Part shown: piece by piece, positions 2,346 through 18,274 of the stretch | Layout: each line of letters opens with the position of its first letter | How positions within the stretch are numbered: position 1 is the stretch's first letter | Virus record (IMG/VR): IMGVR_UViG_3300042371_000100 | Location: 1-21,122 of that record | Source: a virus | Length of the DNA: 21,122 nucleotides | Direction: 5' to 3' (one strand) | Made by a program: the position numbers and the translations under genes | The notes under the pieces: model-generated | Told to the model about the DNA's origin: nothing | Seen by the model: only the letters and a program-made list of their open reading frames with translations | The model's database searches: none

Positions 2346-2686
2346 GTTGCAGTTACCGGGTCATTGCGGTAAGCCATAATCAACACGCTCATACGGTCGT
2401 CTGTTTCTTGCACATCGTTAATGCGCCAATCTTGCGTTCGGTATGTAATTGAAAACAAATGCTGCGAGTTAGCAATTGTCCGCATATTTGGTGTGTAGTT
2501 CAACCGAAACCGCACTAGGTTGTCGTACAGCCGATATTTTTCCGAGATTTTCAGATTGTTGCCTACAGCCGACACTGTGGCTCGGGTGTCAAACCATTTT
2601 GTCGTGGTTGTGGTTTGCTCACCAAAAGCCGTTAAGCTGAAGGTTAGATTATTGATTGCAATGTTTTCAAAACGTGCAATCGCCAT
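2342..2686 (-). CDS. Head closure / head-tail joining protein
   Basis: 114 residues from the ATG at 2686, or 115 from a GTG at 2689 that would overlap the upstream stop. Beta-rich, with 'ISEKYRLYDNLVRFRLNYTPN' (about 48-68) and 'YRTQDWRINDVQETDDRMSVLIM', typical of the small barrel adaptor that closes the connector after packaging (HK97 gp7 / SPP1 gp16 type). It lies between the gp6-like connector and the tail terminator, as in other HK97-type phages. TGATG coupling with the connector stop explains the weak ribosome site. Confidence 0.68.
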   Translation of the reverse strand: MAIARFENIAINNLTFSLTAFGEQTTTTTKWFDTRATVSAVGNNLKISEKYRLYDNLVRFRLNYTPNMRTIANSQHLFSITYRTQDWRINDVQETDDRMSVLIMAYRNDPVTAT

Positions 2687-3345
2687 CACATAACCAATTC
2701 TTTATACGGGCGCAAAAGTGTATCTACGCCAAACGGGATATTTTTGAGTGATGCCTCGGTGCTGTTGCTGCGCTGGTTGTACAGGTGCGTGAGCAGCAGC
2801 AGACCAGCCTGTTTGATGGCTGGATACGTTTGTAGCGGGTTAGGTGCGGTGGTGTACTGCACAACAATCGGGTTTGCCATATCGCTGGTAATTGTGGGCA
2901 GGCTAGTCAAGATAACCCGGTTGCCGCTGGCATCGTAGTAGTAGGTTGATGCCGTCAATAGCGTAAGAGTAGGCGGTGCGCTGTTGTTGTAGTAGCCAAC
3001 CGAGTTGATTGTTAGCCCTGCTTGTGTAGGATATTGATTTTGGCTGACTGCTGGCAAATCTAGCGCCATCGGTGCTGTGATAGTTCCTTGTGCGCCGTAC
3101 CAAACCCGATACGTTAAGGAAAATATTGACATTCCCAGATAGTCTTCAATCGCAAACCTAGTTGCCAGTTCTAGGCTGTTTAGATAGGTGTCTTGGCTTT
3201 CGTCATCATACAAATTTAGCTGCTGGGTAATTTCATCCAGCGTTAGCCAAGGCGTAACCACATCCCGGTTTAACTGCTCAACTTTTGCATAATTAAACGG
3301 GTTGCGGGTTGCCCCACCTTGTGCGCCAAGGATTTCGCTGGACAT
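2686..3345 (-). CDS. Head-tail connector protein (HK97 gp6-like)
   Basis: 219 residues, which is long for the gp6 family (often 100-200). The N-terminal half has the helical core 'PWLTLDEITQQLNLYDDESQ' (32-51) and 'ATRFAIEDYLGMSIF' (62-76). A beta-rich insert follows, then a C-terminal helix 'AIKQAGLLLLTHLYNQRS'. This pattern is that of the adaptor ring that docks under the portal. The ATG has a GGAG site eight bases upstream inside the end of the preceding capsid gene, two bases before this gene. Confidence 0.82.
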   Translation of the reverse strand: MSSEILGAQGGATRNPFNYAKVEQLNRDVVTPWLTLDEITQQLNLYDDESQDTYLNSLELATRFAIEDYLGMSIFSLTYRVWYGAQGTITAPMALDLPAVSQNQYPTQAGLTINSVGYYNNSAPPTLTLLTASTYYYDASGNRVILTSLPTITSDMANPIVVQYTTAPNPLQTYPAIKQAGLLLLTHLYNQRSNSTEASLKNIPFGVDTLLRPYKELVM

Positions 3346-3347
3346 TT

Positions 3348-4379
3348 TTAGACTCCAACCAAGCGCACGCCTGCAAACGGGTCACGCACAGTAGACACCA
3401 TTCGGCGCTCGGCGTACAAAGTGATAAAGCCTGGTGCGCTTTGCTCCATCGCTTGCACAGTCATCTCTTCTACGTCTGCAATGGTTACAAACCGAGGCCA
3501 GTTCGCAAGGTACATTGTAAATTTTCCTGCCGCAACGGTTTCCATGTTTGGGTTTGCGATTACAGGCCAACCAAAAATATTGGCTACGGCACCGCCATCA
3601 TCGTCACCAGTTTCTGCCAACAATCGGCTGGCGTTACCGCTGCTTGCTGCTTTAAGCTGACGCAAATCATGAATTGTGTCTGGGTGCATCATCCATGCAG
3701 TACCCGGCAGATTCCAATATTGTGCCGGTAAACTTTTTGCCAGATTGACTAAATCATCGTATACAAATGCTGCGCCGTTTTGCGATACCGTCAATATTGT
3801 GTGGATGCCGTCCGTAATGGCGGTCCCAGATGAACCGTAAGCTGCTGAGCCGCTTGCATAATAATTTAGCCCACGTAGGCCATTGGTGCTGCCTGTGCTT
3901 GTCGTGCTAGAGCCGGTTTGATCGTTGTTCAAGATCATGCTTGCACCTTCCAACTGTGCAAATTCCAGCATCATGTCTTCAACAAGCGTTTCATTTAAAT
4001 AGTTAATGTCCGACATTACCGCTGTTCGCACGGGCAAGCTGGCGCTGACTACTCGGGTCGGCAATTGCCAAATGCTAGTGGCAATATTAGGTGAACCAGT
4101 GTTTGGAGTTGCAGCGTAGAGCCAAGGGTTAGTAGAGTTTGCAGCGTTACCTGTCTTGGCAACAAATTGCACGCTAGAGCCAGCCGCAGGAATTACCCTA
4201 GACAATTCTCGGATTGGATTTGCAAATCGCAGTGCAGCAAAGGCATTATCAAAGAAAGTGCGCCCACCAATCCCGTTTCCAGAACCAGTGAAGGCAGATG
4301 CTTCGGTCAAATCAATTTTGACTGCATGGCCTTCGTGCAGCGTTTGCTTGATGCCCGACAAAATGCGTGCTGTAGTCAT
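3348..4379 (-). CDS. Second HK97-fold major capsid protein paralogue, no delta domain
   Basis: 343 residues, clearly homologous along its length to the capsid protein at 4442-5782. Matched blocks include 'EASAFTGSGNGIGGRT' (26-41; EASALTGGGNGIGGRT in the other), 'FANPIRELSR', 'LVEDMMLEFAQLEGASMI', 'NGLRGLNYY', 'PGFITLYAERRMVSTVRDP'. It lacks the roughly 80-residue N-terminal coiled-coil delta region of the first copy, so it would not need proteolytic maturation in the same way. An intrinsic terminator lies just upstream (4397-4431), which should reduce its expression. It could be a minor shell subunit, for example a vertex pentamer protein as T4 gp24 is to gp23, or an alternative capsid subunit. 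Too conserved at family motifs to look like decay. Confidence 0.88.
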   Translation of the reverse strand: MTTARILSGIKQTLHEGHAVKIDLTEASAFTGSGNGIGGRTFFDNAFAALRFANPIRELSRVIPAAGSSVQFVAKTGNAANSTNPWLYAATPNTGSPNIATSIWQLPTRVVSASLPVRTAVMSDINYLNETLVEDMMLEFAQLEGASMILNNDQTGSSTTSTGSTNGLRGLNYYASGSAAYGSSGTAITDGIHTILTVSQNGAAFVYDDLVNLAKSLPAQYWNLPGTAWMMHPDTIHDLRQLKAASSGNASRLLAETGDDDGGAVANIFGWPVIANPNMETVAAGKFTMYLANWPRFVTIADVEEMTVQAMEQSAPGFITLYAERRMVSTVRDPFAGVRLVGV

Positions 4380-4396
4380 TTGATTTTCCCGAATGT

Positions 4397-4431
4397 AAAA
4401 AAAAGGCAGGGGAAGTCCAACCTCCCCCTGC
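4397..4431 (-). terminator. Intrinsic terminator between the two capsid genes
   Basis: On the minus strand a GCAGGGG / CCCCTGC seven-base-pair stem, extended by two further pairs around one mismatch, has a six-base loop. Eight T residues follow immediately (plus-strand A run 4397-4404). It begins about 11 bases after the stop of the first capsid gene and ends before the second capsid start at 4379. This is a standard rho-independent structure. It should partly stop late transcription and raise the first capsid protein over everything downstream. Confidence 0.85.
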
Positions 4432-4441
4432 TAATGGCAAC

Positions 4442-5782
4442 TTAGGTTGATGTGCCGGTCGAGCGATAACGAATAATGGCGTTCGGGTCACGGATGCTGG
4501 TTGCCAGCCGTTTTTCGCCATAAAAAGTAATCGATCCTGGGGTTGTCTGGTCGTAGCGGCGCATGACCATATCCATGCGGTCAATGATGCTGTGACCAAG
4601 CTGCCAATCGCCAAAGTACATCGGATAAAGCGATGTGGTGCCTGCGCTGCCAGTCGTTGCCTGAGTTGGGTTGTCAAGATACTTGTTAATCACAACGTCA
4701 AAACCCAGCAGTTGACCAATAATGCCGTTTGCATTGAGCGATTCCATGCTGTTAAAGATTGGACGCCCGTTAGTATCTTGCAGGCCACGAATAGCTTGCA
4801 GCAACACCGGGTTAATCATAAAACAGGCTGAAGTCGTGTAGTACTGTTGCGGCAGGGCATACACCAAATTGATAACGTCTTTGTAGGCGATATTATTTGC
4901 TGCAACCGTGTTGGCGTTAGTTGTGATTTGATCGTAGGTTGCAATGCTATGCAGGCCGGTAGCACTTCCCGTACCGCTGGTGCCGTATGCCGCTGCGCTA
5001 GTAGTGCCGCCGGTATAAGTGGCATTTTGTCCGGGATACTGATCTAGACCACGCAAACCAGATGTGCCGCCGTAGGTATTTGGCGAGTTAGTCTGGTCGC
5101 TGTTTTGAATCATTGACAGTGCTTCGGCTTGTGCAAACTCCATCAGCATATCGTCAACAATGGTGCCTTCCAGCCCGTCAATGTCGTCCAATGCGGCAGT
5201 GCGTACAGGGAATTGGACGTTCAAATCTTGCAGCACCAATTGCCAAATGTTCATGTCCTGCGTAGTTGCAGAACCATTGTTTTGGACCGTGTAGCCCCAA
5301 GTTGCGCCAGCGTTGCCGGTTTTGCTGCGGAATTGGTAGCTAGAGCCATCAGTAACCACAGTGCGGCTTAGTCCGCGCATAGGGTTTGCCAGTCGCATTG
5401 CAGCAAACACAGGGTCGTAGCCCGTGCGTCCACCGATGCCATTGCCGCCCCCAGTAAGCGCAGAGGCTTCATTCATGTAGGCAAGATATTGGCTTTCGTC
5501 AGCAAAAATCTTTAGTGGTTTTTCCACACGATTGTTGGCAGAATAAAATGATTTCAGTTGTTCACGGACTGATCGATTAACGTCACCGCGAGTTGTTTTG
5601 GCAATGCGGATAACGGCAGGCATTTGCAACGTGCTGATTTTTGCCTCAAGCGCCGAGATTTTCTCGGTCATCTCATTTTTGGCGCTTTCAATTGCAGCAG
5701 TAGCTGCGCTGGTAACTTCGGCAATCTTGGCGGCGTTGGCGGCTTCAATAGCGTCGAGTTTTTCAATAATGACTTGGGACAT
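4442..5782 (-). CDS. Major capsid protein (HK97 family) with N-terminal delta domain
   Basis: 446 residues. Residues 1 to about 55 form an Ala/Glu/Lys-rich coiled coil, the usual delta (internal scaffold) domain, followed by a basic linker. The HK97 fold proper begins near 'EASALTGGGNGIGGRT' (105-120). Later blocks include 'LANPMRGLSR', 'DDMLMEFAQAEALSMIQNSD', and the C-terminal 'PGSITFYGEKRLATSIRDP'. The delta domain would be removed by the adjacent protease once the procapsid closes. The ATG has an AAAGG site and overlaps the protease gene by 20 bases. A terminator follows directly, which fits a protein needed in hundreds of copies. It is paralogous to the next gene. Confidence 0.93.
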   Translation of the reverse strand: MSQVIIEKLDAIEAANAAKIAEVTSAATAAIESAKNEMTEKISALEAKISTLQMPAVIRIAKTTRGDVNRSVREQLKSFYSANNRVEKPLKIFADESQYLAYMNEASALTGGGNGIGGRTGYDPVFAAMRLANPMRGLSRTVVTDGSSYQFRSKTGNAGATWGYTVQNNGSATTQDMNIWQLVLQDLNVQFPVRTAALDDIDGLEGTIVDDMLMEFAQAEALSMIQNSDQTNSPNTYGGTSGLRGLDQYPGQNATYTGGTTSAAAYGTSGTGSATGLHSIATYDQITTNANTVAANNIAYKDVINLVYALPQQYYTTSACFMINPVLLQAIRGLQDTNGRPIFNSMESLNANGIIGQLLGFDVVINKYLDNPTQATTGSAGTTSLYPMYFGDWQLGHSIIDRMDMVMRRYDQTTPGSITFYGEKRLATSIRDPNAIIRYRSTGTST

Positions 5783-6548
5783 GATAAACCTTTAAGCGGG
5801 TGTCAAGAAGTTTTAGAAATTCGCGCTGCTCTAAAGCTGCAAGAATCTCCACTGTGGTTGCCTCCGCATCGGAATCGCTCCGGTTTGGTGCAGTTTCATT
5901 AGGGATTTGGACAACATCACGCTGTTCCAGCACCTTTTTGAAAGTCGATGCAGCGGCAACCGCATCACTCTTGGACAGTCCAGCATCACGCAGGCTTTGT
6001 TCCAAAATCTTTAAATTAGCAGACCCATCGGGCCTGAAGTATTCCAGCTTGCTGACGCAGGCTTCGGGGTTATTTGGGTACATAACCACAGACACTTCCC
6101 GCAAGCCGCCTTTGGTAATCTGGAAATATCCTTCGTCAGATTGGTCTGGTTCGCCGTCAGCGTTGACCATCTGGTAAGTTTCTGCATACGCTCCGACAGA
6201 AACCCCGCCAAACATAGCTGGTGATTCTTTCATTACGTTGTAAAGGTCGCTGCCTTGGGTGGTGTTCATAAACAGCCTGCCGTTGGCAGTCATGCCTGTA
6301 TCGTCAAACTCAAAGTGCATCCATTCGCCGACAGGAATTGCATCTGCGCTGTGATTAACAAACATGGGTAAGGGCCTGCCCATTGCCTCAAATTGCTTGG
6401 CCCAGTCTGCAAAGCCTTCAGCTTGATAGTTAAACCTGCGCCCGTCTGCGCCTTCTCGCGGCCCCCAGCTTGTAACCCGTGCCTCAATTGTGCCGGGTTG
6501 CTGATTTAGATTTAGTTTTGCTTCGCAGACGATTAACAGATCGTTCAT
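5763..6548 (-). CDS. Prohead maturation protease (HK97 gp4-like, S78 family)
   Basis: 261 residues. The herpesvirus-assemblin-like catalytic set is visible: His66 in 'PMFVNHSADAIPVGEW', Ser117 in 'FGGVSVGAYA' and Glu151 in 'GGLREVSVVMYP', spaced as in HK97 protease. It cleaves the capsid delta domains, and then itself, inside the procapsid. The C-terminal region, about residues 175-261, contains the segment 'LRDAGLSKSDAVAAASTFKK' and a Glu-rich helix; it probably targets the enzyme into the prohead. The ATG has a GAGG site. The gene lies between portal and capsid, as is standard. Confidence 0.92.
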   Translation of the reverse strand: MNDLLIVCEAKLNLNQQPGTIEARVTSWGPREGADGRRFNYQAEGFADWAKQFEAMGRPLPMFVNHSADAIPVGEWMHFEFDDTGMTANGRLFMNTTQGSDLYNVMKESPAMFGGVSVGAYAETYQMVNADGEPDQSDEGYFQITKGGLREVSVVMYPNNPEACVSKLEYFRPDGSANLKILEQSLRDAGLSKSDAVAAASTFKKVLEQRDVVQIPNETAPNRSDSDAEATTVEILAALEQREFLKLLDTRLKVYHVPSHY

Positions 6549-6666
6549 GGATTACCTCGGTTGTTTTGGTTTTATCCATATCGTGTATTGTCTGCGGCTT
6601 CTGCGGCTTTTTTTGCTTGAACTTTGCAAGCAGCATTGCCAGTTCGTACGGGGTCTTATTTGCCAA
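6484..6666 (-). CDS. Possible small ORF between portal and protease
   Basis: A 60-codon frame that could start at a TTG overlapping the end of the portal gene (the portal stop is at 6656) and runs 65 bases into the protease gene. The product would be Lys/Thr-rich and basic ('LLAKFKQKKPQKPQTIHD'), with no recognised family. It is offered because the 107-base gap between portal and protease is otherwise empty in a tightly packed genome. The TTG start and lack of a clear ribosome site make it doubtful. Confidence 0.25.
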   Translation of the reverse strand: MANKTPYELAMLLAKFKQKKPQKPQTIHDMDKTKTTEVIHERSVNRLRSKTKSKSATRHN

Positions 6667-8044
6667 GATTCATTTTCCGAGTCTGGTTGCCACCACCGCC
6701 GCCAGTATCCTGTGGACTGCTGCCGGGAATTGTATCACCAGGCTTTCCTGCTTTCAATTCGTCTGCACCGTCAATGTTTTTCATTCCAAGATATTCCCGT
6801 GCCTCATTTGCCGTCATTATGCCTGCATTTACCCCAGCCACCGAAAAATTCATTTGATCAACTGGTGAACCACGCAAAAATGCCCTTGTGTCAAATTCTA
6901 CACATAAATTAGGATATCCGACAAGCAGGTGCTGTTTTAGCTTTTGCTGGACATTGACGATTAGCGGGTACATACTGGATTTATAAAACTCATCCAGCAT
7001 TGTTTGGGTGTTGTTGTATTTTTGGTCGGCAATGCCAATCATTGCAGGCGGAACGCCAAACAAACCGCAGATGCGTTTCATAGTCTGTTCTTTTAACTTG
7101 GCGCAATCCGTGTCTTGCAGCGTCAGCATATCCAGCGGCTGGTATTTCATGCCCTGATCTAGCAACATTCCCTGCCCTGGCTTGCTGGGGTCTGCGTTGC
7201 GACTGCCTGTCATTGATGACCATGCTTCTTTGAGCCGTGCCGCAATTTCCTTGTACTTGCCGTCAGGAATGACGTTCTCGGTGACAAACATCCCGCTAGG
7301 CTTGGCGCCGTTTTGCATGACGTAGTTGGCGTACAAATCAATATCTTGATCTAGGCCAATCAATTCTGCCGCCAAAATGCCCTTATTAAAACCGCCATTT
7401 CCTTGCCAAGCGGCATCTACCAAATGCATGACTTGATGTGCAGCAAGCGGTTCGTCACGGTTAAATCCATAGGCCGGGGTACTGAGTCTGTAACTAGGGT
7501 ATCTGGTTACATTGACGGTTGTACTAATTAACGTGCTGTCAAAAACGTACATTTCCAGCGGCGTTTGGGTGCTGCTTTCTTGGTCTTTGCGCCACCAAAG
7601 GATGTACACCTCGCCGCTGAGTTCATGCCACATGATGTACTGATAAAAGAATTCATAGGCACTTTGAAAGTTGTTGGGATTGTTTAGCAGGTAGGCCACT
7701 TGTTTGGCTTTGGCTTTGTCTCTGGCGCTAACCTCTGGACTTTTAACGGCATCGTGATAACCACCATCATCCATATCGCACATAATGCGGATTGGCAGTT
7801 GCGCCATTGCCCTGGCTTTTGCTCCCACGCAGGCCATAATTGTGGAATTACGGCTCATCATGCTCATGTCTACCGGCCTGCCAGCGTCTGTGCTGCTGCC
7901 CGTTGTGACGTAAAGAATCTGACTGTTTGCGCTGTTGTATTTGTTGCTGCTGCCCCACAATACATTGTTACCAAGGGCAGTCTGCCCAAACATTGAATTA
8001 GATTCTTTGCTTGTTTTTTGTTTGAAAATGTCAAATAAAGCCAT
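6656..8044 (-). CDS. Portal protein (HK97 family)
   Basis: 462 residues, the normal size for an HK97-type portal, the dodecameric ring at one capsid vertex through which DNA enters and leaves. Recognisable segments are 'NSTIMACVGAKARAMAQLPI' near the N-terminus, 'HELSGEVYILWWRKD', 'RICGLFGVPPAMIGIADQKY' and 'IMTANEAREYLGMKNIDGAD' in the C-terminal part, the last very typical of PF04860-type portals. The Gly-rich tail 'GGGGGNQTRKMNLGK' is unstructured. The ATG has an AAAGGGAAATC leader. It follows terL by nine bases. Confidence 0.95.
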   Translation of the reverse strand: MALFDIFKQKTSKESNSMFGQTALGNNVLWGSSNKYNSANSQILYVTTGSSTDAGRPVDMSMMSRNSTIMACVGAKARAMAQLPIRIMCDMDDGGYHDAVKSPEVSARDKAKAKQVAYLLNNPNNFQSAYEFFYQYIMWHELSGEVYILWWRKDQESSTQTPLEMYVFDSTLISTTVNVTRYPSYRLSTPAYGFNRDEPLAAHQVMHLVDAAWQGNGGFNKGILAAELIGLDQDIDLYANYVMQNGAKPSGMFVTENVIPDGKYKEIAARLKEAWSSMTGSRNADPSKPGQGMLLDQGMKYQPLDMLTLQDTDCAKLKEQTMKRICGLFGVPPAMIGIADQKYNNTQTMLDEFYKSSMYPLIVNVQQKLKQHLLVGYPNLCVEFDTRAFLRGSPVDQMNFSVAGVNAGIMTANEAREYLGMKNIDGADELKAGKPGDTIPGSSPQDTGGGGGNQTRKMNLGK

Positions 8045-8053
8045 GATTTCCCT

Positions 8054-9715
8054 TTAAAAAGTTCTGAAACCAAAACCTGATTGTACGGGATTATCTAAAT
8101 TGCAATGCATACTGATAATGAGGGATATGATGCCGTCCACCTTGGCAGACTTGTCCGCTTCGTTTTTCCGCACTTTAACGTTGCCGTTCACATCTTCATA
8201 GACTTCGCAGTTCCCAAGCTGCCAGCCAACAAACGGGTTTCCATCGTGCTTGATACTGTATTGCATTAGCAATCGTTCTACGTGCTTGCTTGGGTTGCTT
8301 AATACTGCCATGCCCTGGCCCACTTTTTTTAACGGCAGGCCAGCATCATTAAGCCGAGCCACCAGGCTGGCGGCGTTGTAGGCGTCAAAGCCAATTTCTT
8401 TGACTTCGTACTTTTCGCACTGCTTAAGAATGTACTCGCTGATTTCCCGATCATCCATGACATTGCCCTGGGTGACGTGCAAAATGCCTGATGCACGGGC
8501 CACCGCAAAAATGTCGCCGTAATGTTTAGGTATTAAATCGTATCCGTCTTGTGGCAAAAAGAATTTAAATTCTGCTTCGTAATCGTCATCAGCAAATCGC
8601 TTTAACGTGCAGACTGCATTTAAATCTCGGGTTGCCGCCAAGTCAAAACCCATAAATACGGATTCTGGCTCTCTTTTTTTACCCAGCTTGCAACGGTCAT
8701 CATCCCAATATGCCCGGTCAATCCATGCTGAATTTGCGCTGACATACAAGTTTAGTGTTTTGCAAAGGAACTCATTTAATGCGGCAGGCTTGTGTTTAGC
8801 TTCTTCGGCACGTTGGGCAATTGCATCTTCAAAAACGCTTATTTTATGCATTGGGTTAGCTTTGGCCCATGTTGTAGGGTCACGCCAATCATCACCGGGA
8901 TCAAGGCTATATAGCAAACCAAACCAATGCGGGTTATCGGTAGCTTCCCCTGTTAGCATGGTTTGAAGCATGGTCATGTCTTCATAAAACTTGGTTTCCT
9001 TGGTAAAACTGGCGGTGGTGATGTAGACGCGCAAAGGGTTTTGACGGGCAACCATGCCCGAATGCAGCACTTCAATAGAGTTGCGGTCTACGATCTGGGC
9101 GGCTTCATCAATAATGGCGCAAGAAGGATTTAAACCGTCGCCCGTCTTTTTGGCATCGCGGCTCAATGCTTTAAACATAGACTGAGCATCACCGGCTTTC
9201 ATAATTTGATGACGCCCAGCGTTATAAAGTGCCGCAATGTCAGGCGGCATAGCATCAATAAAGCCGGTAGCAGCGGTAAAAACAATTCCCGCTTGATCGC
9301 GTGTTGTTGCTAATGAGTACACCTCTGCCCCAGCTTCTCCAAAACCTAATTCGTACAGGGCAATTGCTGCCGTCAAAGTTGATTTACCTGCTTTTCGAGG
9401 AATGTAAATAATTACATCCGTCACCATTCGTTTAGTTAAATCACGTTTGCTGCGAAACCCGTAAACCGCGCAAATGATAAAAACCTGAAACGGTTCAAGG
9501 ATTAACGGTTTGCCAGCGTCTGGCCCTTTGGTGTGCTTAAGAGTCCCAATAAACTTTAAAACGTGCTGGGCATACTTTGCGTGAAATTCATACGCCCATG
9601 CTTGATCTTCTAATTGATTTAAAAATCGTTGGCAGGCAAGCCGAACATTTCGACAAACTAGAATTTCGCCACGCACTACTTGCACGGCGTAAAAAATTCC
9701 GTCTTCGTAATTCAT
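8054..9715 (-). CDS. terL: Terminase large subunit (HK97/Terminase_1 type)
   Basis: 553 residues. The N-terminal ATPase has a P-loop 'IPRKAGKST' (105-113) and a Walker B 'CAIIDEAA' (199-206). The C-terminal RNase H-like nuclease has acidic residues at Asp358 ('MGFDLAATRD'), Asp444 ('IGFDAYNA') and Asp528 ('KVDGIISLI'). It cuts concatemeric DNA and drives it through the portal. The ATG overlaps the terS stop (ATGA, 9712-9715). Its sequence type is that of phages making cohesive ends, which points to a cos-like packaging mode but does not prove it. Confidence 0.95.
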   Translation of the reverse strand: MNYEDGIFYAVQVVRGEILVCRNVRLACQRFLNQLEDQAWAYEFHAKYAQHVLKFIGTLKHTKGPDAGKPLILEPFQVFIICAVYGFRSKRDLTKRMVTDVIIYIPRKAGKSTLTAAIALYELGFGEAGAEVYSLATTRDQAGIVFTAATGFIDAMPPDIAALYNAGRHQIMKAGDAQSMFKALSRDAKKTGDGLNPSCAIIDEAAQIVDRNSIEVLHSGMVARQNPLRVYITTASFTKETKFYEDMTMLQTMLTGEATDNPHWFGLLYSLDPGDDWRDPTTWAKANPMHKISVFEDAIAQRAEEAKHKPAALNEFLCKTLNLYVSANSAWIDRAYWDDDRCKLGKKREPESVFMGFDLAATRDLNAVCTLKRFADDDYEAEFKFFLPQDGYDLIPKHYGDIFAVARASGILHVTQGNVMDDREISEYILKQCEKYEVKEIGFDAYNAASLVARLNDAGLPLKKVGQGMAVLSNPSKHVERLLMQYSIKHDGNPFVGWQLGNCEVYEDVNGNVKVRKNEADKSAKVDGIISLIISMHCNLDNPVQSGFGFRTF

Positions 9716-10170
9716 GGCCCAGCCAGCAGATCAGCGTATTTGCCGCCTTCAACTTTGTTTGTTGCCAATCGGCTTTTAGGGGTTAACCCTAATTCGTTCA
9801 TTAAAACAATTGCACGGGCAAGCGCCTTGTCACCCACGGTAATGTAAGGATTAGGGCCAGTATTAACGCCGCCATTAAAGGTGACCACAATCCCGCCTTC
9901 TCTGATGCCTTGGCAACACTGGACGTAAATATCCAATTGCATAGCAAGCGCCGCCAAAATGTGCTTGTCTTGATTGGAACCGATGCCGTAAGTTTCCCAT
10001 AAGAATTCGCTGGTTTCTTGAATAAAAGCATCTCGATCCCATTGGCTTGGGTCATCAATCCATTCAGCTTTGGGAACTCGTTGGCGTATTTTTTCCGGCA
10101 AAGGCTTGGCTTTATGTTCGGCTTTGGTTCCATGCACGATGTGCAATTCGGCTGGCAGTCGATTAGTCAT
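9712..10170 (-). CDS. terS: Terminase small subunit (P27-like)
   Basis: 152 residues. It has the P27-family outline: an N-terminal 'LPAELHIVHGTKAEHKAKPLP' type segment, a helical middle ('DKHILAALAMQLDIYVQCCQ'), 'GPNPYITVGDKALARAI' and the C-terminal 'NELGLTPKSRLATNK' (about 126-140), which is the hallmark of the family. It recognises the packaging site and loads TerL. The ATG lies next to an A/T-rich leader, and the 170-base non-coding stretch immediately upstream holds repeats that may be its target. Confidence 0.88.
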   Translation of the reverse strand: MTNRLPAELHIVHGTKAEHKAKPLPEKIRQRVPKAEWIDDPSQWDRDAFIQETSEFLWETYGIGSNQDKHILAALAMQLDIYVQCCQGIREGGIVVTFNGGVNTGPNPYITVGDKALARAIVLMNELGLTPKSRLATNKVEGGKYADLLAGP

Positions 10171-10341: not shown

Positions 10342-10776
10342 TCAGCCTGTGCGCCCATTCTGGTGCATTGCGAAGCTGTAGTCGTCCTGGGTGTATGCCT
10401 TCTCGCCTTCCATTGTCCAATGTAGGTAATTACCCTTGCGCTCTTGGCCTGTCTTGTGACTGTGATCGGCATGACAAAGGGATTGGAAGATGTTATGCAG
10501 GAAGGCGTGCTGGCCTATATGCCGCCAAGGGAATACGTGATCTACGTGCTGTGCTGCCTCAATACGCCCTCTAGATAGGCAGGCTTGGCATAAGGGCTGT
10601 ATGGATAGCTGGCGGCGTCTGATGCTGCGCCACGCTGGTGTTTGGTATACGCTGTCAGTCTGTCTAGCGTCTAGGTTGTCTTTGCCGCCGTGCTTAGTGC
10701 AAAAGCTGTTTAGCTTGCTTCTTGGTTCCTTGCAGCCTAGTTCACCGCATTTAAGGTTGCTTGGGTATGTCGGCAC
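10342..10776 (-). CDS. HNH endonuclease (packaging-associated)
   Basis: 144 residues. It starts with a Cys/His cluster (Cys10, Cys15, Cys26, His29) and carries a Cys63-x2-Cys66 knuckle, 'HVDHVFPWR' (77-85), Asn95 and 'SLCHADHSHKT' (99-109), the metal-binding HNH core. In HK97 the equivalent gp74 next to terS helps TerL cut at cos. The only in-frame start giving the full domain is a GTG at 10776 with no ribosome site. That GTG lies inside the short ParB-like remnant, so translation may be coupled to it. The stop abuts the tandem 10-bp repeats. Confidence 0.88.
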   Translation of the reverse strand: MPTYPSNLKCGELGCKEPRSKLNSFCTKHGGKDNLDARQTDSVYQTPAWRSIRRRQLSIQPLCQACLSRGRIEAAQHVDHVFPWRHIGQHAFLHNIFQSLCHADHSHKTGQERKGNYLHWTMEGEKAYTQDDYSFAMHQNGRTG

Positions 10777-10843
10777 TGTGTGTGCAACTGTTGCGTGCGT
10801 AAAGTATTAAATCCTCTGTCGCTTTGTACTGTATTTCAATCAT
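10751..10843 (-). pseudogene. N-terminal remnant of a ParB-domain protein
   Basis: An ATG-started 30-codon frame reads 'MIEIQYKATEDLILYARNS' and then 'CTHSADIPKQP' before TAA. The 'I.Y.A..DLI.YARNS.THS' pattern is the N-terminal signature of phage ParB-domain proteins, often fused to DNA methyltransferases of several hundred residues. Here it ends within 25 codons because the HNH sequence begins. The ATG overlaps the DUF1364 stop by eight bases, as a live gene would. I read it as the stump of a deleted gene, possibly now serving as a leader for the HNH gene, whose GTG start lies inside it. Confidence 0.7.
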
Positions 10844-11114
10844 TTAACGCCTTTATTGTCTTTTCGTGGGCTGCTTGCCACATGGTTTGTCGTTCCTGTT
10901 TGCTTAACTTTGTGCCTTGATCAATCTCATAATGGCACGTTTGGCATAGTGCCGCCACTAGGTTGTCGTCTGCTTTTATTCCCCGGCCTTTGCCTCCGCC
11001 CCAATTTGTATGTGCTGCCTGCACCATTTCTCCACTTCCACAATGCTGACAGTTTAGCAAAGCAACCTTTTTTAGCAAGGCTTTATCTCTGACATATTGG
11101 TGTTTAAGAAACAT
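10836..11114 (-). CDS. DUF1364 / YbcO-like metal-binding protein
   Basis: 92 residues from the ATG at 11114, chosen because it has an AAAGG site six to seven bases upstream and overlaps the ninB stop by 11 bases; longer frames would run back inside ninB. Zinc-site residues are Cys22-x2-Cys25, His35 in 'VQAAHTNWGGGKGRG' and Cys57-x2-Cys60-His61 with Asp65 ('CQTCHYEID'). This is the pattern of the YbcO/DUF1364 family, an HNH-like nuclease fold found next to NinB in lambdoid phages. It probably acts in recombination or DNA processing. Confidence 0.82.
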   Translation of the reverse strand: MFLKHQYVRDKALLKKVALLNCQHCGSGEMVQAAHTNWGGGKGRGIKADDNLVAALCQTCHYEIDQGTKLSKQERQTMWQAAHEKTIKALND

Positions 11115-11511
11115 CAATGCCTTTGTTTGCTGCCCAAGCGTACAGGAATTCAATAAACTCGCTGCTCTCGCCCGTAGTGAATTTGTGGCTTTGCAGGCCA
11201 AGCTGGACAATGCGTTCATTATCTAAACTCGGGCAAACTTTGCCGATCTTCCTGTCCGTGTCATGCGCCCATTGGTCAACCAACAATCTTTTCCAATCAT
11301 CTGGCGTCCAAGTGCTTCCAGCTGCCGCCATTGCCGTGCTGATTTTGCCAATCAAGCTGTGAAACATGGCATTTTGCTCAGTGCTTCGGCGGCTTTGTTT
11401 GATTTCAATCGTCATTCTGTGTCCAGCCATCAGCATAGATTTCAGCGTAGGCCAAATCACAGTCATCATTTCCCGATGGGCCTGCACAGGTTCCCATACT
11501 GCAATTTTCAT
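11104..11511 (-). CDS. ninB: NinB recombination protein
   Basis: 135 residues, close to lambda NinB (Orf), which helps RecA/SSB-dependent or annealing-based recombination. Visible landmarks are 'GHRMTIEIKQSRRSTEQNAM' (30-49), followed by 'MFHSLIGKIS' and 'TPDDWKRLLVDQW' (about 69-81). This gives the N-terminal strand plus 'R(S)TEQN' helix that defines PF05772. The ATG overlaps the stop of the VRR-NUC gene (ATGA). Its neighbours are other DNA-processing genes, matching the nin-like block of lambdoid genomes. Confidence 0.85.
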   Translation of the reverse strand: MKIAVWEPVQAHREMMTVIWPTLKSMLMAGHRMTIEIKQSRRSTEQNAMFHSLIGKISTAMAAAGSTWTPDDWKRLLVDQWAHDTDRKIGKVCPSLDNERIVQLGLQSHKFTTGESSEFIEFLYAWAANKGIDVS

Positions 11512-13449: not shown

Positions 13450-13632
13450 ATGATCAAAGCAAACATGACATACGAAGAATTCGTGACCGCCTACACAGCA
13501 GCCTTCAACCTCGCCATGACCTACAAGCCAGCCGAATGCGGCTTTGCGGTGTACGCAGAAAAGATGGCCGACCTCTCCGACGCTTACCCCGAGTTTGCAG
13601 ACCGCGCCGAAAACGAAACCATCTCCGCATAA
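13450..13632 (+). CDS. First early protein, function unknown
   Basis: 60 residues, probably all helical and acidic ('MTYEEFVTAYTAAFNLAM', 'AEKMADLSDAYPEFADRA'). The ATG has an AGGA site seven bases upstream. It is the first gene after the early promoter and is closely followed by a UUCG hairpin. No family recognised. Its position and small acidic nature fit an early host-takeover or regulatory protein, but that is only a guess. Confidence 0.7.
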   Translation: MIKANMTYEEFVTAYTAAFNLAMTYKPAECGFAVYAEKMADLSDAYPEFADRAENETISA

Positions 13633-13641
13633 ACCACAACG

Positions 13642-13653
13642 GGGCTTCGGCCC
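13642..13653 (+). other. Intergenic hairpin with UUCG tetraloop
   Basis: GGGC-TTCG-GCCC is a perfect four-pair stem with the very stable UUCG loop, in the 34-base gap between the first and second early genes. No T run follows, so it is not a standard terminator. It may stabilise the upstream message or pause RNA polymerase. Confidence 0.6.
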
Positions 13654-13666
13654 TTGAAAGAACACC

Positions 13667-13996
13667 ATGAAAACTCCCATCTGGACAACTGGCTACAAGC
13701 CAACCAAAGACGACTTAAAGGGTCTGTACAACCATAGTTTCGAGACTGCTGGCGGTCTGGTTCTGGATTGCTATCTGGCTTTTGAAGCTGAAGAACGTGC
13801 CACATACGATCACCCTGGCAGTGCAGCCGCCATCGAACTTATCTGGGCATTGGTTGAAGGCGTTGATATCAGCGAGGTCATTGGCGATCTGGCGGCAACC
13901 ATTGAGGAAGAAGCCTTGGAAGACATGGAATCCAAAGCAGAAGATGACCAGTACGACCGTGGACAGGAACGCTACGAAGATAGGAACGCAAAATGA
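13667..13996 (+). CDS. Early protein, function unknown
   Basis: 109 residues, very acidic, with the last 30 residues almost all charged ('EEEALEDMESKAEDDQYDRG'). The middle ('SAAAIELIWALVEGVDISEV') looks like a compact helical domain. It begins 'MKTPIWTTGYKPTKDDLK'. I do not recognise the family. The ATG is 14 bases after the UUCG hairpin, with a modest GAAAG site; the stop overlaps the next start (ATGA, 13993-13996). Confidence 0.72.
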   Translation: MKTPIWTTGYKPTKDDLKGLYNHSFETAGGLVLDCYLAFEAEERATYDHPGSAAAIELIWALVEGVDISEVIGDLAATIEEEALEDMESKAEDDQYDRGQERYEDRNAK

Positions 13997-14262
13997 ATCA
14001 TGCAATCAATTGGACGCTGGCTGTAGCGGTGGCGGCGGTGCTGTCCACGGCATACCTGCTGGACGGCCCTAGTGATCACCAGGCTGCGATGGATGCTGCA
14101 ACTGATGCTAAAGCTACTCAGCGCGAACAAGCGGCTCTGGCGAGGTTTGAGAAGGCTGCACAGGCAATGTGTGGCGATAACGCAGGGTGGACGCAGCTGG
14201 AAAACGGCAGTGTCCAATGTTTTACAAAACGGGGTTACAAAACCCAGAAAGTGCAATTGTGA
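13993..14262 (+). CDS. Small membrane-anchored or secreted protein with paired cysteines
   Basis: 89 residues. An N-terminal hydrophobic segment (about 7-23, 'WTLAVAVAAVLSTAYLL') is followed by an Ala/Glu/Arg helix and a small C-terminal domain with Cys60 and Cys76 ('MCGDNAGWTQLENGSVQC', 'FTKRGYKT'). The two cysteines could form a disulfide outside the cytoplasm. Proteins of this pattern recur in Burkholderiales phages without known function. Translation is coupled at both ends, ATGA before and GTGA after. Confidence 0.75.
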   Translation: MNHAINWTLAVAVAAVLSTAYLLDGPSDHQAAMDAATDAKATQREQAALARFEKAAQAMCGDNAGWTQLENGSVQCFTKRGYKTQKVQL

Positions 14263-14453
14263 GTATCGATCAGATTCTGGCAGGGGTGACAGATGTTGCC
14301 AACAGAGCATATGAGGGTTCACCGCCCGAGGACAGGCTAGCGTTTGAGGTTGGGATGCTTCATTCCAAGCTGCGCGAGATGTCGTACCTGCTGGCTAACG
14401 CCAATAAGCACATTAAAGAGTTGGAAATTGAGTTGGCTTACGAAAGGAAATGA
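14259..14453 (+). CDS. Small coiled protein, function unknown
   Basis: 64 residues. I chose the GTG at 14259 because it overlaps the upstream TGA (GTGA), matching the coupling style of this operon; the same frame runs further upstream only inside the preceding gene. The product has helical segments 'AFEVGMLHSKLREMSYLL' and 'NKHIKELEIELAYERK', the latter likely a coiled coil. No family recognised. Confidence 0.6.
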   Translation: MSIDQILAGVTDVANRAYEGSPPEDRLAFEVGMLHSKLREMSYLLANANKHIKELEIELAYERK

Positions 14454-14454
14454 A

Positions 14455-14643
14455 ATGACAACCATCACGTTTCACCGAATCACAACGCTCGAATTGACCG
14501 AGACAAATGCACTGACCACCAGCTCAGGAAGTTTGTTCTGGAGGCGCAAGCTGATTGTCACTGATGAAAAAGGCAACAAGACAGAAATTAACCTGTTTTC
14601 TGAAAACAAAGAACCATTGGAAATCAAGGAGATAACACTATGA
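14455..14643 (+). CDS. Small beta-rich protein, function unknown
   Basis: 62 residues from the ATG at 14455, preceded by an AAAGGAAA site. The sequence alternates polar and hydrophobic residues ('TITFHRITTLELTETNAL', 'LIVTDEKGNKTEINLFSEN'), suggesting a small beta sandwich or barrel. It immediately precedes the recombination genes and overlaps the ERF start by four bases (ATGA), so it is translated with them. Confidence 0.65.
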   Translation: MTTITFHRITTLELTETNALTTSSGSLFWRRKLIVTDEKGNKTEINLFSENKEPLEIKEITL

Positions 14644-15197
14644 AACAAATAGCTAGCGCACTGGTGAAAGCACAGAAAGCCTTTGGGCCAGCCTTAAAAA
14701 CCTCTACAAACCCGCATTTTAAAAGCCGCTACGCTGACCTTGCCGCTTGCGTTGAAGCTGTCATAGGCGGTTTAAACGATAACGGCATAGCCTTGATCCA
14801 GCGCAACAGCTTGGACGATAACGGAGTGACCGTGGAAACCGTGTTTGTGCATGAATCTGGGGAAATGCTGGAATGCGGCAAGCTGCACGTACCTGCTGCT
14901 AAACACGATCCCCAAGGCTACGGTTCCGCTCTGACGTATGCCAGACGGTACAGCCTGATGGCGGCTTGTGGGATTGCACCCGAGGACGATGACGGCAACG
15001 CTGGCAGCAAGCCAGTACCAAAAGCAAATGAAGCAACAGAAGCAACAATCAAAGCAATACTGGCAGACATTGAATCCTGCACAACTCACGATCAACTAAA
15101 GGAAGCATTTTTTACGGGAATTAAAACAGTGGGTGATAACAAAAAAGCCCGCGATCAAATTACTGAAGCTAAAGACGAAAAGAAAGCAACACTATGA
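14640..15197 (+). CDS. erf: ERF-family single-strand annealing recombinase
   Basis: 185 residues, similar to P22 Erf. Family landmarks are 'IASALVKAQKAFGPALK' (4-20), 'HFKSRYADLAACVEAV' (26-41), 'VFVHESGEMLE' (68-78) and the diagnostic 'DPQGYGSALTYARRYSLMAA' (90-109), followed by acidic 'PEDDDGN'. The protein anneals complementary single strands during phage recombination and genome circularisation. A strong AAGGAG site precedes the ATG. It overlaps the exonuclease gene by four bases, forming a Red/Erf-like pair. Confidence 0.93.
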   Translation: MKQIASALVKAQKAFGPALKTSTNPHFKSRYADLAACVEAVIGGLNDNGIALIQRNSLDDNGVTVETVFVHESGEMLECGKLHVPAAKHDPQGYGSALTYARRYSLMAACGIAPEDDDGNAGSKPVPKANEATEATIKAILADIESCTTHDQLKEAFFTGIKTVGDNKKARDQITEAKDEKKATL

Positions 15198-15823
15198 GCA
15201 TCTTGTTTAGAGCCAGCGCCTTGTCAGCAATCATGACCGATGGAAAAGGCAAAGATGAATTGTCTGTTGGTGCTAAAACCTACGTCACTAAGTTGGCAAA
15301 GGAATTTGTCTATGGCTACGACGAACGCATCAGCAGCAAGTACATGGACAAAGGCATCCAAGTTGAAGATGAATCCATTGACCTTTACAACGCTGTGCAT
15401 TTATCCAGTTATGCAAAAAACACTGAACGCCGCAAAAACGAATGGATTACTGGAGAGGCTGACATTGTGGCGGATGACAGGATTATTGACATCAAAAGCA
15501 GCTGGTGTCTGACCACTTTTCCAGTGCTTGCGGAACAAGGTGAAGACAAAGGCTATGAATGGCAGCTAAGAGCATATATGTGGCTATGGGATAAACCACG
15601 CGCAGACATTGCTTATTGTTTAGTAAGCACTCCCGAAGCATTGATTGGTTGGGAAAACAAACAGCTTCACAAAGTTGACCACATTAATCGCGAGTTGCGT
15701 GTAACTGTTGTGCCATACGTCCGCGACACGGTAATGGAAGACAAGATTAAAGTTAAGGTAGAAGCGGCACGGGTTTTTTATGATCAAGTGCTTAAAGAAA
15801 TCAGCGAACAACACATTTATTAA
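15194..15823 (+). CDS. PD-(D/E)XK exonuclease, partner of ERF
   Basis: 209 residues, in the size range of lambda exonuclease. Catalytic landmarks are Glu58/Glu60 in 'MDKGIQVEDESIDLY', 'TGEADIVADDRIIDIKSSW' with Asp99-Ile-Lys101 (86-104) and the following Gln124 helix 'YEWQLRAYMWLWD'. It should resect double-stranded ends 5' to 3' to expose single strands for the ERF protein. Coupling by ATGA with erf supports the partnership. The family is lambda-exo/YqaJ-like by motif; the exact subgroup cannot be set by eye. Confidence 0.85.
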   Translation: MSILFRASALSAIMTDGKGKDELSVGAKTYVTKLAKEFVYGYDERISSKYMDKGIQVEDESIDLYNAVHLSSYAKNTERRKNEWITGEADIVADDRIIDIKSSWCLTTFPVLAEQGEDKGYEWQLRAYMWLWDKPRADIAYCLVSTPEALIGWENKQLHKVDHINRELRVTVVPYVRDTVMEDKIKVKVEAARVFYDQVLKEISEQHIY

Positions 15824-15835
15824 CTAAGGAAAAAA

Positions 15836-16078
15836 ATGGCAATCTCAAAAGAAATTAGCTGCGTAGTCGGCACATACACCAATGCTCAAGGCGAAAAGAA
15901 AAACCGTTATCAACGCATTGGCAGCATTATCCAAACCCAGAGAGGCGAGATGTTAAAGCTGGACGTTATCCCACTAAAAGAAGGTGGCTGGGATGGCTGG
16001 GCATATTTAAATGACCCAAAACCAAAAGAACAATATCAAGGTTTGCCAAAAGACAACGATGAAGACATACCTTTTTGA
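15836..16078 (+). CDS. Small putative single-strand DNA-binding protein with SSB-type tail
   Basis: 80 residues, with an AAGGA site seven bases before the ATG. The body is beta-rich with basic and aromatic residues ('GEKKNRYQRIGSIIQTQRG', 'GGWDGWAYLNDPKPKEQYQG'). The last residues are 'DNDEDIPF', nearly identical to the acidic tip (DDDIPF) by which bacterial SSB recruits RecO, exonuclease I, PriA and others. Its place directly after exonuclease and annealing protein matches the position of phage SSB genes. It is much shorter than standard SSB, so the OB fold is inferred, not shown. Confidence 0.7.
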   Translation: MAISKEISCVVGTYTNAQGEKKNRYQRIGSIIQTQRGEMLKLDVIPLKEGGWDGWAYLNDPKPKEQYQGLPKDNDEDIPF

Positions 16079-16089
16079 AAGAAAACAAA

Positions 16090-16353
16090 ATGAGCATATT
16101 AGAAGAAATCCGGGTCAACCGAGCGCCTACACACATCGTGCGTTCTGCCGGTCTTGAGTTGCAAAAGAAGACCAAGGTAATCATGGGCGAGTATGTCGAG
16201 CGGGAGAAGCAACCCGGTGAAGTTAAACAGGCTGAGAACGACTTGTGGCAGCGACCAGTGTACCGCTCCGGTGATGGGGACAGTATGCGGCAAGTTCCAC
16301 GGGCAGGTAGCTTGGATGCGTTCAGCTTGCCTAGCAGGGGGAATCGGACATGA
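16090..16353 (+). CDS. Hypothetical protein
   Basis: 87 residues from the ATG at 16090; a TTG at 16075 that overlaps the previous stop would add five. It is basic and polar ('SILEEIRVNRAPTHIVRS', 'VIMGEYVEREKQPGEVKQ') with an apparently disordered C-terminus. No family recognised and no strong ribosome site. The stop overlaps the next ATG (16350-16353). Confidence 0.55.
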   Translation: MSILEEIRVNRAPTHIVRSAGLELQKKTKVIMGEYVEREKQPGEVKQAENDLWQRPVYRSGDGDSMRQVPRAGSLDAFSLPSRGNRT

Positions 16354-16580
16354 CAACACAACCGGAAGCCTTGCGGCTGGCTGACAAGATGAGCAGCTAC
16401 AAATTGTGTAGCGGATACGCATGGCATTGTCACAAAGCCGCCGCTGAACTGCGCCGACTCCATGCAGTGAATCAGGAACTGCTGGCGGCGTTGAAAGAAA
16501 TGCTTGACGGTGAAAATAAATCATTCCGAGAGTTGTGCGAACAAGCCCGTGCAGCAATAGCCAAAGGAGAACTGAAATGA
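16350..16580 (+). CDS. Small coiled-coil early protein ('TQPEALRLAD' type)
   Basis: 76 residues. The opening 'MTTQPEALRLADKMSS' and the helix 'AAAELRRLHAVNQELLAALK' are typical of a small protein common in phages of Burkholderiales and related bacteria, often described only as hypothetical. It is mostly one long coiled coil. ATGA overlaps join it to both neighbours. Confidence 0.72.
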   Translation: MTTQPEALRLADKMSSYKLCSGYAWHCHKAAAELRRLHAVNQELLAALKEMLDGENKSFRELCEQARAAIAKGELK

Positions 16581-16696
16581 AAGACGACGATGTTGAAGAT
16601 TTGTTTGCCTACGGCTGGATTGACACCGCCGTTGCCATTGTCCTCGCGCTGCTTGCGTTGGTGGCACTGTTTTTTATGGCGGGGTATTTGACATGA
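16577..16696 (+). CDS. 39-residue single-pass membrane protein
   Basis: A very short gene with an acidic N-terminus ('MKDDDVEDLFAYGW') and one strong transmembrane helix (about 15-38, 'IVLALLALVALFFMAGYL'). It fits exactly between its neighbours with four-base ATGA overlaps at both ends (16577-16580 and 16693-16696), good evidence that it is translated. The function is unknown; as an early membrane peptide it could affect the host envelope or superinfection. Confidence 0.68.
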   Translation: MKDDDVEDLFAYGWIDTAVAIVLALLALVALFFMAGYLT

Positions 16697-17019
16697 GCCG
16701 CCTGTTATTTGCTGCCGCCCGTGGGGCGAGGATTGAAGCGGAATGGAAAGGAGTATGGAGCGGCGTTGGTGGTATCCATTTTATTCCAAAGTTCAACTAC
16801 CGCATCCACCCGGCAGACGAGCACTTGCAGTACGGCCCCATCAGCACGGCGTTGCGAAAGATGGTTGAAGACCCCAAGTACAACTCAAGCTGGGAACATT
16901 TCCTTGCAAACAGTGCCGCGAATGAGTTTACAGAGTATTTTGATTCCCGTCGGGGTGAGCCTGATTACCCGCTGTTTTATTTATTTTTGGCCGAGTTCTT
17001 GGCCGATTCTGGCTTATAG
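16693..17019 (+). CDS. Conserved phage protein of unknown function
   Basis: 108 residues. The N-terminus 'MSRLLFAAARGARIEAEW' and the middle 'RIHPADEHLQYGPISTALRK' belong to a type of early protein seen repeatedly in betaproteobacterial phages, ending here in 'FLAEFLADSGL'. It contains conserved Trp, His and aromatic residues but no catalytic signature that I recognise. Confidence 0.72.
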   Translation: MSRLLFAAARGARIEAEWKGVWSGVGGIHFIPKFNYRIHPADEHLQYGPISTALRKMVEDPKYNSSWEHFLANSAANEFTEYFDSRRGEPDYPLFYLFLAEFLADSGL

Positions 17020-17027
17020 GAGATGTG

Positions 17028-17399
17028 ATGACAGGATTTGATTCAAAGCGCCAGATGGCGCAGGACAAACTGCAAGATGACGCCGACACGCTGTCGATTG
17101 TGTACCAGCGAGGTTTTGCCGACGGCAAGAAAGCAGCACAGCCAGAGCAGGAGCAGGAGCCGGTGGCGTGGATGAAGGAAGATTGGACTGGTGGGCACCT
17201 TAACTACGAATGTGTGTATGAGAGAGCTTTTGCCGCTTTTCCCGTTTACAAGCACCCACCAGCAGCACAGCGCAAGCCGCTGACGGAAGAAATGCGAAAG
17301 CAGATGCTAGAGGCCAGCGACAACTACGAAATGCGTGGAGCATTTGCAAATGGCTGGCTGAGTGCCGAAGCCGCCCACAACATAAAGCAGCAACCATGA
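17028..17399 (+). CDS. Early protein with 'EPVAW' module
   Basis: 123 residues from the ATG at 17028, with AGGAG just upstream; a GTG one codon earlier is possible. Order: N-terminal helix ('RQMAQDKLQDDADTLSIVYQ'), Gln/Glu-rich linker, the 'EPVAWM' module, 'FPVYKHPPAAQRKPLTEEM', and a C-terminal helix ending 'AEAAHNIKQQP'. The EPVAW...PP..QR..LTEE arrangement is a modular unit found in many small phage proteins of unknown role. The following gene carries a diverged copy. ATGA coupling downstream. Confidence 0.72.
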   Translation: MTGFDSKRQMAQDKLQDDADTLSIVYQRGFADGKKAAQPEQEQEPVAWMKEDWTGGHLNYECVYERAFAAFPVYKHPPAAQRKPLTEEMRKQMLEASDNYEMRGAFANGWLSAEAAHNIKQQP

Positions 17400-17803
17400 C
17401 TAACCAACTGAGACAAGCCGCGCAGCAGGGGCTGGAGGCGTTGGAAGATGAGCGTTATGTGACCAAGTACACGCACATCGTAGAAGCCATCACCGCCCTA
17501 CGCAAAGCACTGGAGCAGCCAGAGCAGGGGCCGGTGGCGTGGGCGGTGCAAGGCTGTTCAAAAATGTGGCGTGATGAGTTTGCGGAGATTGACGCAAAAG
17601 CAGAGGCAAAACGCATCGGGGGTACTTGCGTTGCGTATGCGCTCTACACCACCCCACCCCAGCGCCAATGGGTAGGGCTGACGGATGAGGAAATGAGTGA
17701 CACAGTAGCTGACATAAAAGTTGATTTCGGCGACTTGTTGTGGAAAGTGGTGTGTCTCACAAAACTTATTGAAGCCAAACTGAAGGAGCGCAATGGATAC
17801 TGA
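17396..17803 (+). CDS. Early protein with second 'PVAW' module
   Basis: 135 residues. The N-terminal helix 'TNQLRQAAQQGLEALEDE' is of the kind found with these modules, followed by 'ALEQPEQGPVAWAVQGCSK', 'ALYTTPPQRQWVGLTDEEMS' and a helical C-terminus. It shares the PEQ.PVAW and PP.QR..LT(D/E)EEM arrangement with the preceding gene, and the DNA around the PVAW start is nearly identical (17139-17171 and 17517-17541). The function is unknown. Confidence 0.72.
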   Translation: MTNQLRQAAQQGLEALEDERYVTKYTHIVEAITALRKALEQPEQGPVAWAVQGCSKMWRDEFAEIDAKAEAKRIGGTCVAYALYTTPPQRQWVGLTDEEMSDTVADIKVDFGDLLWKVVCLTKLIEAKLKERNGY

Positions 17804-18035
17804 AGACGAAGAGTTTGAGCGTTTCAAGCATGAAAAAAAATTTAAACTAGACAGTACATTTACCGCTGTTGTGTCAGACAATTATTATTGGATACCAATT
17901 GATAACAATACCCCGCAGGGTGTCAAGGTGCTGTTACTTGGTAGATCAGGAGTGGCTGCACTTGGACAATATATTTACCGCACGGGTGAAACACAATTTT
18001 GGACGCATTGGGCACCACTCCCACGAAAGCAATAA
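17793..18035 (+). CDS. Hypothetical protein
   Basis: 80 residues with an AAGGAG site ahead of the ATG; the start overlaps the previous gene by 11 bases. Acidic N-terminus ('MDTEDEEFERFKHEKKF') then a beta-rich part ('NYYWIPIDNNTPQGVKVLLL', 'GETQFWTHWAPLPRK'). The second part resembles the small 'W.P....P..G..VLL' domain found in phage proteins of the EPVAW group, of unknown role. Confidence 0.7.
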   Translation: MDTEDEEFERFKHEKKFKLDSTFTAVVSDNYYWIPIDNNTPQGVKVLLLGRSGVAALGQYIYRTGETQFWTHWAPLPRKQ

Positions 18036-18274
18036 TGACTGTATCGCAACATCCTAAAATTCGTAAACTGCTACACCATTTCAATGATGGCTTGACAACA
18101 AAAGAAATTGCAAATGAATTATCAATGGACAATGAAAATATTAGGAAATCATTAAAAGAAATGCCCGACACTTACATTGACCGTTGGACAAAAGGACAGC
18201 AAAAAAAACCTGCTCAAGCTGTTTGGTGCGCAGTTATACCGCCTGAAGATTGCCCTAGACCTGAAAATAAATAA
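18035..18274 (+). CDS. Small helix-turn-helix protein
   Basis: 79 residues from the ATG at 18035, whose A is the last base of the previous stop (TAATG). The middle reads as a DNA-binding helix-turn-helix of the LuxR/sigma-70 region 4 style: 'FNDGLTTKEIANELSMDNEN' followed by 'IRKSLKEMPDTY'. The tail 'KKPAQAVWCAVIPPEDCPRP' is probably flexible. It could be a late-acting regulator at the end of the early operon. A/T-rich codons differ from the GC-richer genes just upstream. Confidence 0.65.
   Translation: MTVSQHPKIRKLLHHFNDGLTTKEIANELSMDNENIRKSLKEMPDTYIDRWTKGQQKKPAQAVWCAVIPPEDCPRPENK

Follow-up and report, generated by a model that had tools for sequence, protein, structure and literature searches.

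Two adjacent genes for HK97-type capsid proteins, named M1 and M2, were identified in a viral DNA of 21,122 nucleotides (IMG/VR record IMGVR_UViG_3300042371_000100), referred to here as the window. M1 is expected to be the true major capsid protein. For M2, the reading that we favour with moderate confidence is that of a processed, minor HK97-fold subunit of the shell, most likely the penton, which would work like gp24 of phage T4. The tandem pair is a property of a widespread group of small freshwater phages and is not peculiar to the window. Both genes belong to a head module on the minus strand, which also encodes the small and large terminase subunits, a portal protein, an S78 protease and a gp6-like connector. 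The features of this module are the following:

2686..3345, minus strand: head-tail connector (gp6-like); PF05135, E 7.9e-7; conserved downstream of M2
3348..4379, minus strand: M2, HK97-fold capsid paralogue of 343 aa without the delta coiled coil; PF05065, E 5.1e-22; 38% identical to M1; Foldseek match to 6tb9
4302..4379, minus strand: N-terminal segment of M2, residues 1-26, with a predicted helix at 2-16 and ending at the putative cleavage site L-T-E26↓A-S-A; L/V/I-x-E↓A/S conserved
4397..4431, minus strand: hairpin and T run resembling an intrinsic terminator, between M1 and M2; 10 bp stem at 4431-4406, eight T at 4404-4397, -20.7 kcal/mol
4442..5782, minus strand: M1, HK97-fold major capsid protein of 446 aa; PF05065, E 1.6e-31; phrog_10 (major head protein), E 9e-31; RcGTA capsid profile, E 2.7e-9
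5468..5470, minus strand: Glu105 of M1, putative cleavage site M-N-E↓A-S-A; hydrophobic-x-E↓A/S conserved, cleavage predicted
5471..5782, minus strand: delta/scaffold segment of M1, residues 1-104; AlphaFold2 coiled-coil helix at 2-50; absent in M2
5763..6548, minus strand: prohead protease (Peptidase_S78) of 261 aa; PF04586, E 7.5e-9; conserved upstream of M1
6656..8044, minus strand: portal protein; PF04860, E 7.7e-60
8054..9715, minus strand: terminase large subunit; PF20441/PF03354; phrog_9, E 4e-132
9712..10170, minus strand: terminase small subunit; phrog_83, E 2.4e-16

Elsewhere in the window, two neighbouring small nuclease-like genes (10342-11219, minus strand; HNH, E 4.9e-6; weak YbcO-like match, E 4e-4) adjoin NinB at 11104-11511. 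Among the genes of the opposite strand (13450-18274, plus strand) is one for an ERF-type recombinase (14640-15197), and the ORF behind it, of 209 aa, has no Pfam match. A protein of 280 aa encoded at 20147-20989 (minus strand) has a P-loop kinase part at its N-terminus (APS_kinase, E 1.6e-7; phrog_10255 kinase, E 5e-44) and a weak cytidylyltransferase-like match at its C-terminus, and is possibly a bifunctional nucleotide or cofactor enzyme.

The relationship between M1 and M2 was established by direct alignment. Residues 24-339 of M2 (316 residues) were aligned by BLASTP with residues 103-438 of M1, giving 131 identities over 346 positions (38%, E 3e-59), and profile-profile comparison with hhalign returned a probability of 100% (E 1.7e-80). 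Both proteins matched PF05065 (Phage_capsid) far above the curated cut-off of 24.2 bits, M1 with 110 and M2 with 79 bits, and 34 of 39 relatives of M2 matched the same family at E ≤ 0.001. As M1 also outscored M2 against PHROG (108.5 vs 69.7 bits) and RcGTA (39.8 vs 31.6 bits), it is considered as the more canonical copy and M2 as the derived one. The AlphaFold2 model of M2 is of low confidence (pLDDT 54.6); it displays A-domain-like elements and, where the spine helix would be expected, a long helix, and its top Foldseek matches were HK97-fold capsids, the best one being the RcGTA capsid 6tb9 (E 1.1e-12). The full-length model of M1 was poor (pLDDT 45.9) and uninformative as fold evidence in Foldseek, so that the assignment of M1 rests on sequence profiles. 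Altogether, these data bear out the preliminary description of this DNA, in which two tandem HK97-type capsid paralogues had been proposed, including the fold of the second protein as far as a low-confidence model can tell.

The distribution of the pair was then considered. Among 50,697 phage records, a match was obtained only in Methylophilaceae phage P19250A (KX815270), an isolated phage of the LD28 clade with a genome of about 38.7 kb. It carries both genes in the same order, 58% (M1) and 56% (M2) identical to those of the window, and annotated as GTA capsid and 'hypothetical', respectively. No discussion of the capsid pair was found in the consulted papers that mention P19250A, nor a description of this pair in any of the papers searched. 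Matches were obtained in hundreds of IMG/VR contigs, and the pair is also present on five MAG contigs of the genome collection. M1 and M2 were adjacent in 323 loci; as different queries retrieved some of the contigs repeatedly, distinct junction sequences were counted as well, giving 240. The full order protease-M1-M2-connector was present in 110 of the first 150 loci. Other phages with the pair, for which a search had been proposed in the preliminary description, are numerous and include an isolate. All loci were found with M1 or M2 as queries, so a more distant single-copy relative could be missed. No match was obtained in plasmids, and no tandem pair was seen among 49 PF05065 matches in a control of 200 bacterial genomes, a quick look which understates such pairs since it also missed M2 in one genome (G002). 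Venkman (MT375522, L151) has been presented in the literature as possibly a marine variant of P19250A, but tblastn with M1 and M2 gave no match there, and the order of its annotated genes corresponds to another capsid module, in which scaffolding has a gene of its own.

Loci with a single gene were cut by contig ends, with the sole exception of L270, a contig from a Polymorphobacter MAG. Positions 1-753 of this contig encode a C-terminal fragment of M1. Behind it lie a phrog_26742 gene and genes of bacteria, with no adjoining M2. Another M1 fragment is located on a different contig of the same MAG, which has a patchwork look. L270 may represent a prophage in decay, a relative with one capsid gene or an assembly error.

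The two paralogues differ at their N-termini. Ahead of the shared motif EASAxTGxGNGIGGRT there are 104 residues in M1 (before EASALTGGGNGIGGRT) and 25 in M2 (before EASAFTGSGNGIGGRT), a difference of 79. The part found only in M1 is predicted by AlphaFold2 to form a long helix (residues 2-50, pLDDT about 70-78). The initial claim that M2 lacks about 80 N-terminal residues therefore held with respect to the length and to the absent delta coiled coil, but this absence is not the whole difference, as M2 displays a conserved N-terminal segment of its own of about 25 residues, with a predicted helix at residues 2-16. Homology of this helix to the N-terminus of M1 was not supported, the similarity not being above that of shuffled sequences.

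At the shared motif, Glu is followed by Ala or Ser in 196 of 204 sequences of M1 and in 202 of 204 of M2, and in all of these but one a hydrophobic residue is located two positions ahead of the Glu. The Glu is also present in the few exceptions that were displayed. The distance of the motif from the start ranges from 97 to 113 residues in M1 and from 23 to 42 in M2, and the M2 of P19250A, which has an insertion of about ten residues ahead of the motif, still keeps V-N-E↓A. From this pattern we infer that one S78 protease trims both paralogues after hydrophobic-x-Glu, taking about 105 residues off M1 and about 26 off M2. In HK97, the best-known S78-type case, cleavage does not follow a Glu motif, and the conserved site may therefore alternatively be a structural motif of the N-arm. 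The prohead protease of T4 cleaves after Glu, gp23 losing 65 residues and gp24 losing 10 (PMC5694885; PMC9958956), and the proteases of phiKZ, 201phi2-1 and SPN3US do so as well (PMC5694885). Short leaders of this kind are capsid-targeting sequences in T4 (PMC5694885). In the preliminary description, a delta-less subunit was supposed to enter only a shell nucleated by the first copy; since M2 has its own putative propeptide, it may carry its own targeting signal.

The junction between the two genes gave indications on their dosage. In the 62-base gap, a 10-bp hairpin (4431-4406) is followed by CTTTTTTTT. A terminator-like hairpin with a T-rich tail was detected in the gap of 72 out of 75 representatives (median -18 kcal/mol), while 0.067 terminator-like sites per gap were expected from the neighbouring sequence; the three remaining representatives have the hairpin with no proper T tail. 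The longest helix reached at least 7 pairs in 71 of 71 gaps, and as these display 63 different 5' stem arms, the structure of the junction is conserved while its sequence varies. Taken alone, the hairpin of the window (-20.7 kcal/mol) does not fold unusually well for a sequence of this composition (z -1.9), so that the evidence lies in the conservation across loci. In addition, the ribosome-binding site of M1 is stronger than that of M2 (-5.4 vs -3.3 kcal/mol, p 1e-4). From the terminator-like hairpin and the stronger ribosome-binding site together, M1 should be made in excess of M2. Hairpins can also stabilise transcripts, and the one found here could represent an mRNA-stabilising 3' end, with both genes being expressed about equally; this explanation of the dosage signals is unlikely, as the U-rich tract directly 3' of the stem in 72 of the 75 representatives is the signature of intrinsic termination.

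A predicted excess of M1 also bears on the proposal of mixed capsomers, in which M2 would be a co-major subunit without a fixed position at the vertex, as in the two-component Family 2B encapsulins. M2 has retained the N-arm, the P-domain spine and the E-loop and could therefore fit any position of the lattice. However, its hairpin and weaker ribosome-binding site place M2 in a low-expression class together with the connector and tail genes, and it is devoid of the delta domain which M1 probably uses as scaffold. Mixed capsomers are thus rather improbable.

The paralogues were further compared by region, with borders that we assigned from the HK97 topology and the low-confidence model of M2. 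Identity was highest in the N-arm (59%), followed by the spine helix and the first helix of the P-domain with 49% each, and lowest in the A-domain (24-33%), with 24% in its axial loop. The diverged A-domain and the neighbouring connector genes would suit an HK97-fold protein located outside the regular lattice, at the portal vertex or in the neck, or an assembly factor which does not stay in the virion. Such a role is quite doubtful, since the presumed shell-contact elements, N-arm and spine helix, are the best kept, as expected of a lattice subunit. After normalisation for divergence within each family, the overall ratio was 1.86, compared with 1.92 in the axial loop and 2.1-2.2 in both the E-loop and the P-strands; no concentration of divergence at the capsomer axis was seen and no region was singled out, hence a vertex role is not proven by sequence alone. 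Of the minor vertex subunit proposed in the preliminary description, the minor role is indirectly backed by the terminator-like hairpin and the weaker ribosome-binding site of M2, while the vertex is not singled out by regional divergence.

Both copies have been maintained for a long time. In a FastTree phylogeny of 152 sequences, M1 and M2 were resolved as two clades of 76 sequences each, with one fully supported branch between them. This clean split indicates that the duplication took place before any of the sampled members diverged from one another, and no sign of later exchange between M1 and M2 copies was seen in this tree. Median dN/dS values of about 0.12 (M1) and 0.08 (M2), obtained from 150 phylogenetically non-independent pairs, indicate that both genes are under purifying selection. 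The distance matrices of M1 and M2 were only moderately correlated (r 0.45), therefore co-divergence was dropped as an argument. The duplication and specialisation suggested at the outset are well supported by the single ancient split, the near-universal retention in tandem and the purifying selection on both copies. An accessory alternative capsid protein, acting in a head-size switch or as a decoy against host defence with no essential structural place, is very improbable, given that M2 is kept in every informative locus but one fragmentary MAG contig and is under strong purifying selection, unlike a dispensable accessory gene.

Taken together, the minor-subunit role of M2 is probable from these features, and its placement at the vertices is what we infer from the low dosage expected for it, the conservation of its lattice elements, the near-universal presence and the T4 precedent. 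In the proposed scheme, M1 would be made in large amounts, form the hexamers and use its delta segment as a built-in scaffold. M2 is an ancient tandem duplicate of M1 that has kept the HK97-type core and the N-arm, with the delta coiled coil being absent. The hairpin after M1 would lower transcription of M2, and the weaker ribosome-binding site would presumably limit its translation. M2 would then enter the same prohead as minor subunit, most likely in the 11 non-portal pentamers. A T=7 head would in this case contain about 55 copies of M2 and about 360 of M1. Finally, the single S78 protease would trim both proteins, removing the 105-residue delta segment from M1 and the 26-residue leader from M2, as T4 does with gp23 and gp24. 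In the complete scenario, a large lineage of freshwater siphophages of about 40 kb would have independently derived a specialised penton protein from the gene of its major capsid protein; a terminator between the two genes would set the dose of this protein, and a short cleavable leader would direct it to the prohead. We consider the chances of this scenario as evenly balanced.

The rarity of two-protein shells has been explained by genome economy in phages of about 40 kb (2026 review, PMC13185644), and here hundreds of contigs keep a capsid pair in a group whose isolate has 38.7 kb. If the complete scenario is true, T4 would no longer be the only virus splitting hexamer and pentamer roles between HK97-fold proteins, and the idea that small phages cannot afford such a division would be overturned. 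Phage P19250A and its host IMCC19250 make the question of M2 directly testable.

Among known systems, T4 offers the closest functional parallel, with gp24 as minor vertex paralogue of the major capsid protein gp23 (PMC9958956; PMC5694885), and has been described as the single virus with two HK97-fold proteins for hexamers and pentamers (PMC12407261). In both cases there are two HK97-fold paralogues per phage, a single prohead protease and a minor copy with a much shorter N-terminal propeptide (putative here), and the Glu motif is of the same kind as the cleavage sites of T4. In contrast, T4, a myophage of far larger size, has a prolate head and relies on a separate core scaffold, whereas the phage here has about 38.7 kb (P19250A) and uses an S78 protease, and its M1 carries the delta domain itself. 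Identity between the paralogues is also higher, 38% for M1/M2 and about 17-20% for gp23/gp24, so that the pair may illustrate an earlier stage in the division of hexamer and pentamer roles by a capsid gene.

With HK97 gp5 and PF05065 phages, the present phage shares the order of protease, delta-domain capsid and connector, a T=7-sized genome and the family match itself; in HK97-type phages of about 40 kb, one capsid protein builds both hexamers and pentamers (PMC13185644), whereas two capsid genes are present here. By fold as well as by sequence profile, the closest solved structure is the capsid Rcc01687 of the Rhodobacter capsulatus gene transfer agent (RcGTA). A single capsid protein is reported for RcGTA, which is not known to have a second HK97-fold paralogue. 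The Family 2B encapsulin of Streptomyces lydicus has a shell of two distinct HK97-fold proteins in seemingly random hetero-pentamers (PMC12407261), but it is a bacterial nanocompartment without protease, portal or DNA packaging, and such an identity was ruled out by the terminase, portal, protease and connector genes of the window. JBD30 and Adjutor were discarded as precedents because their 'two major capsid proteins' are two copies of one protein, and SU10 because it is built from a single major capsid protein. By analogy, the M1/M2 pair appears to work most like gp23/gp24 of T4 but belongs to an HK97/RcGTA-type module.
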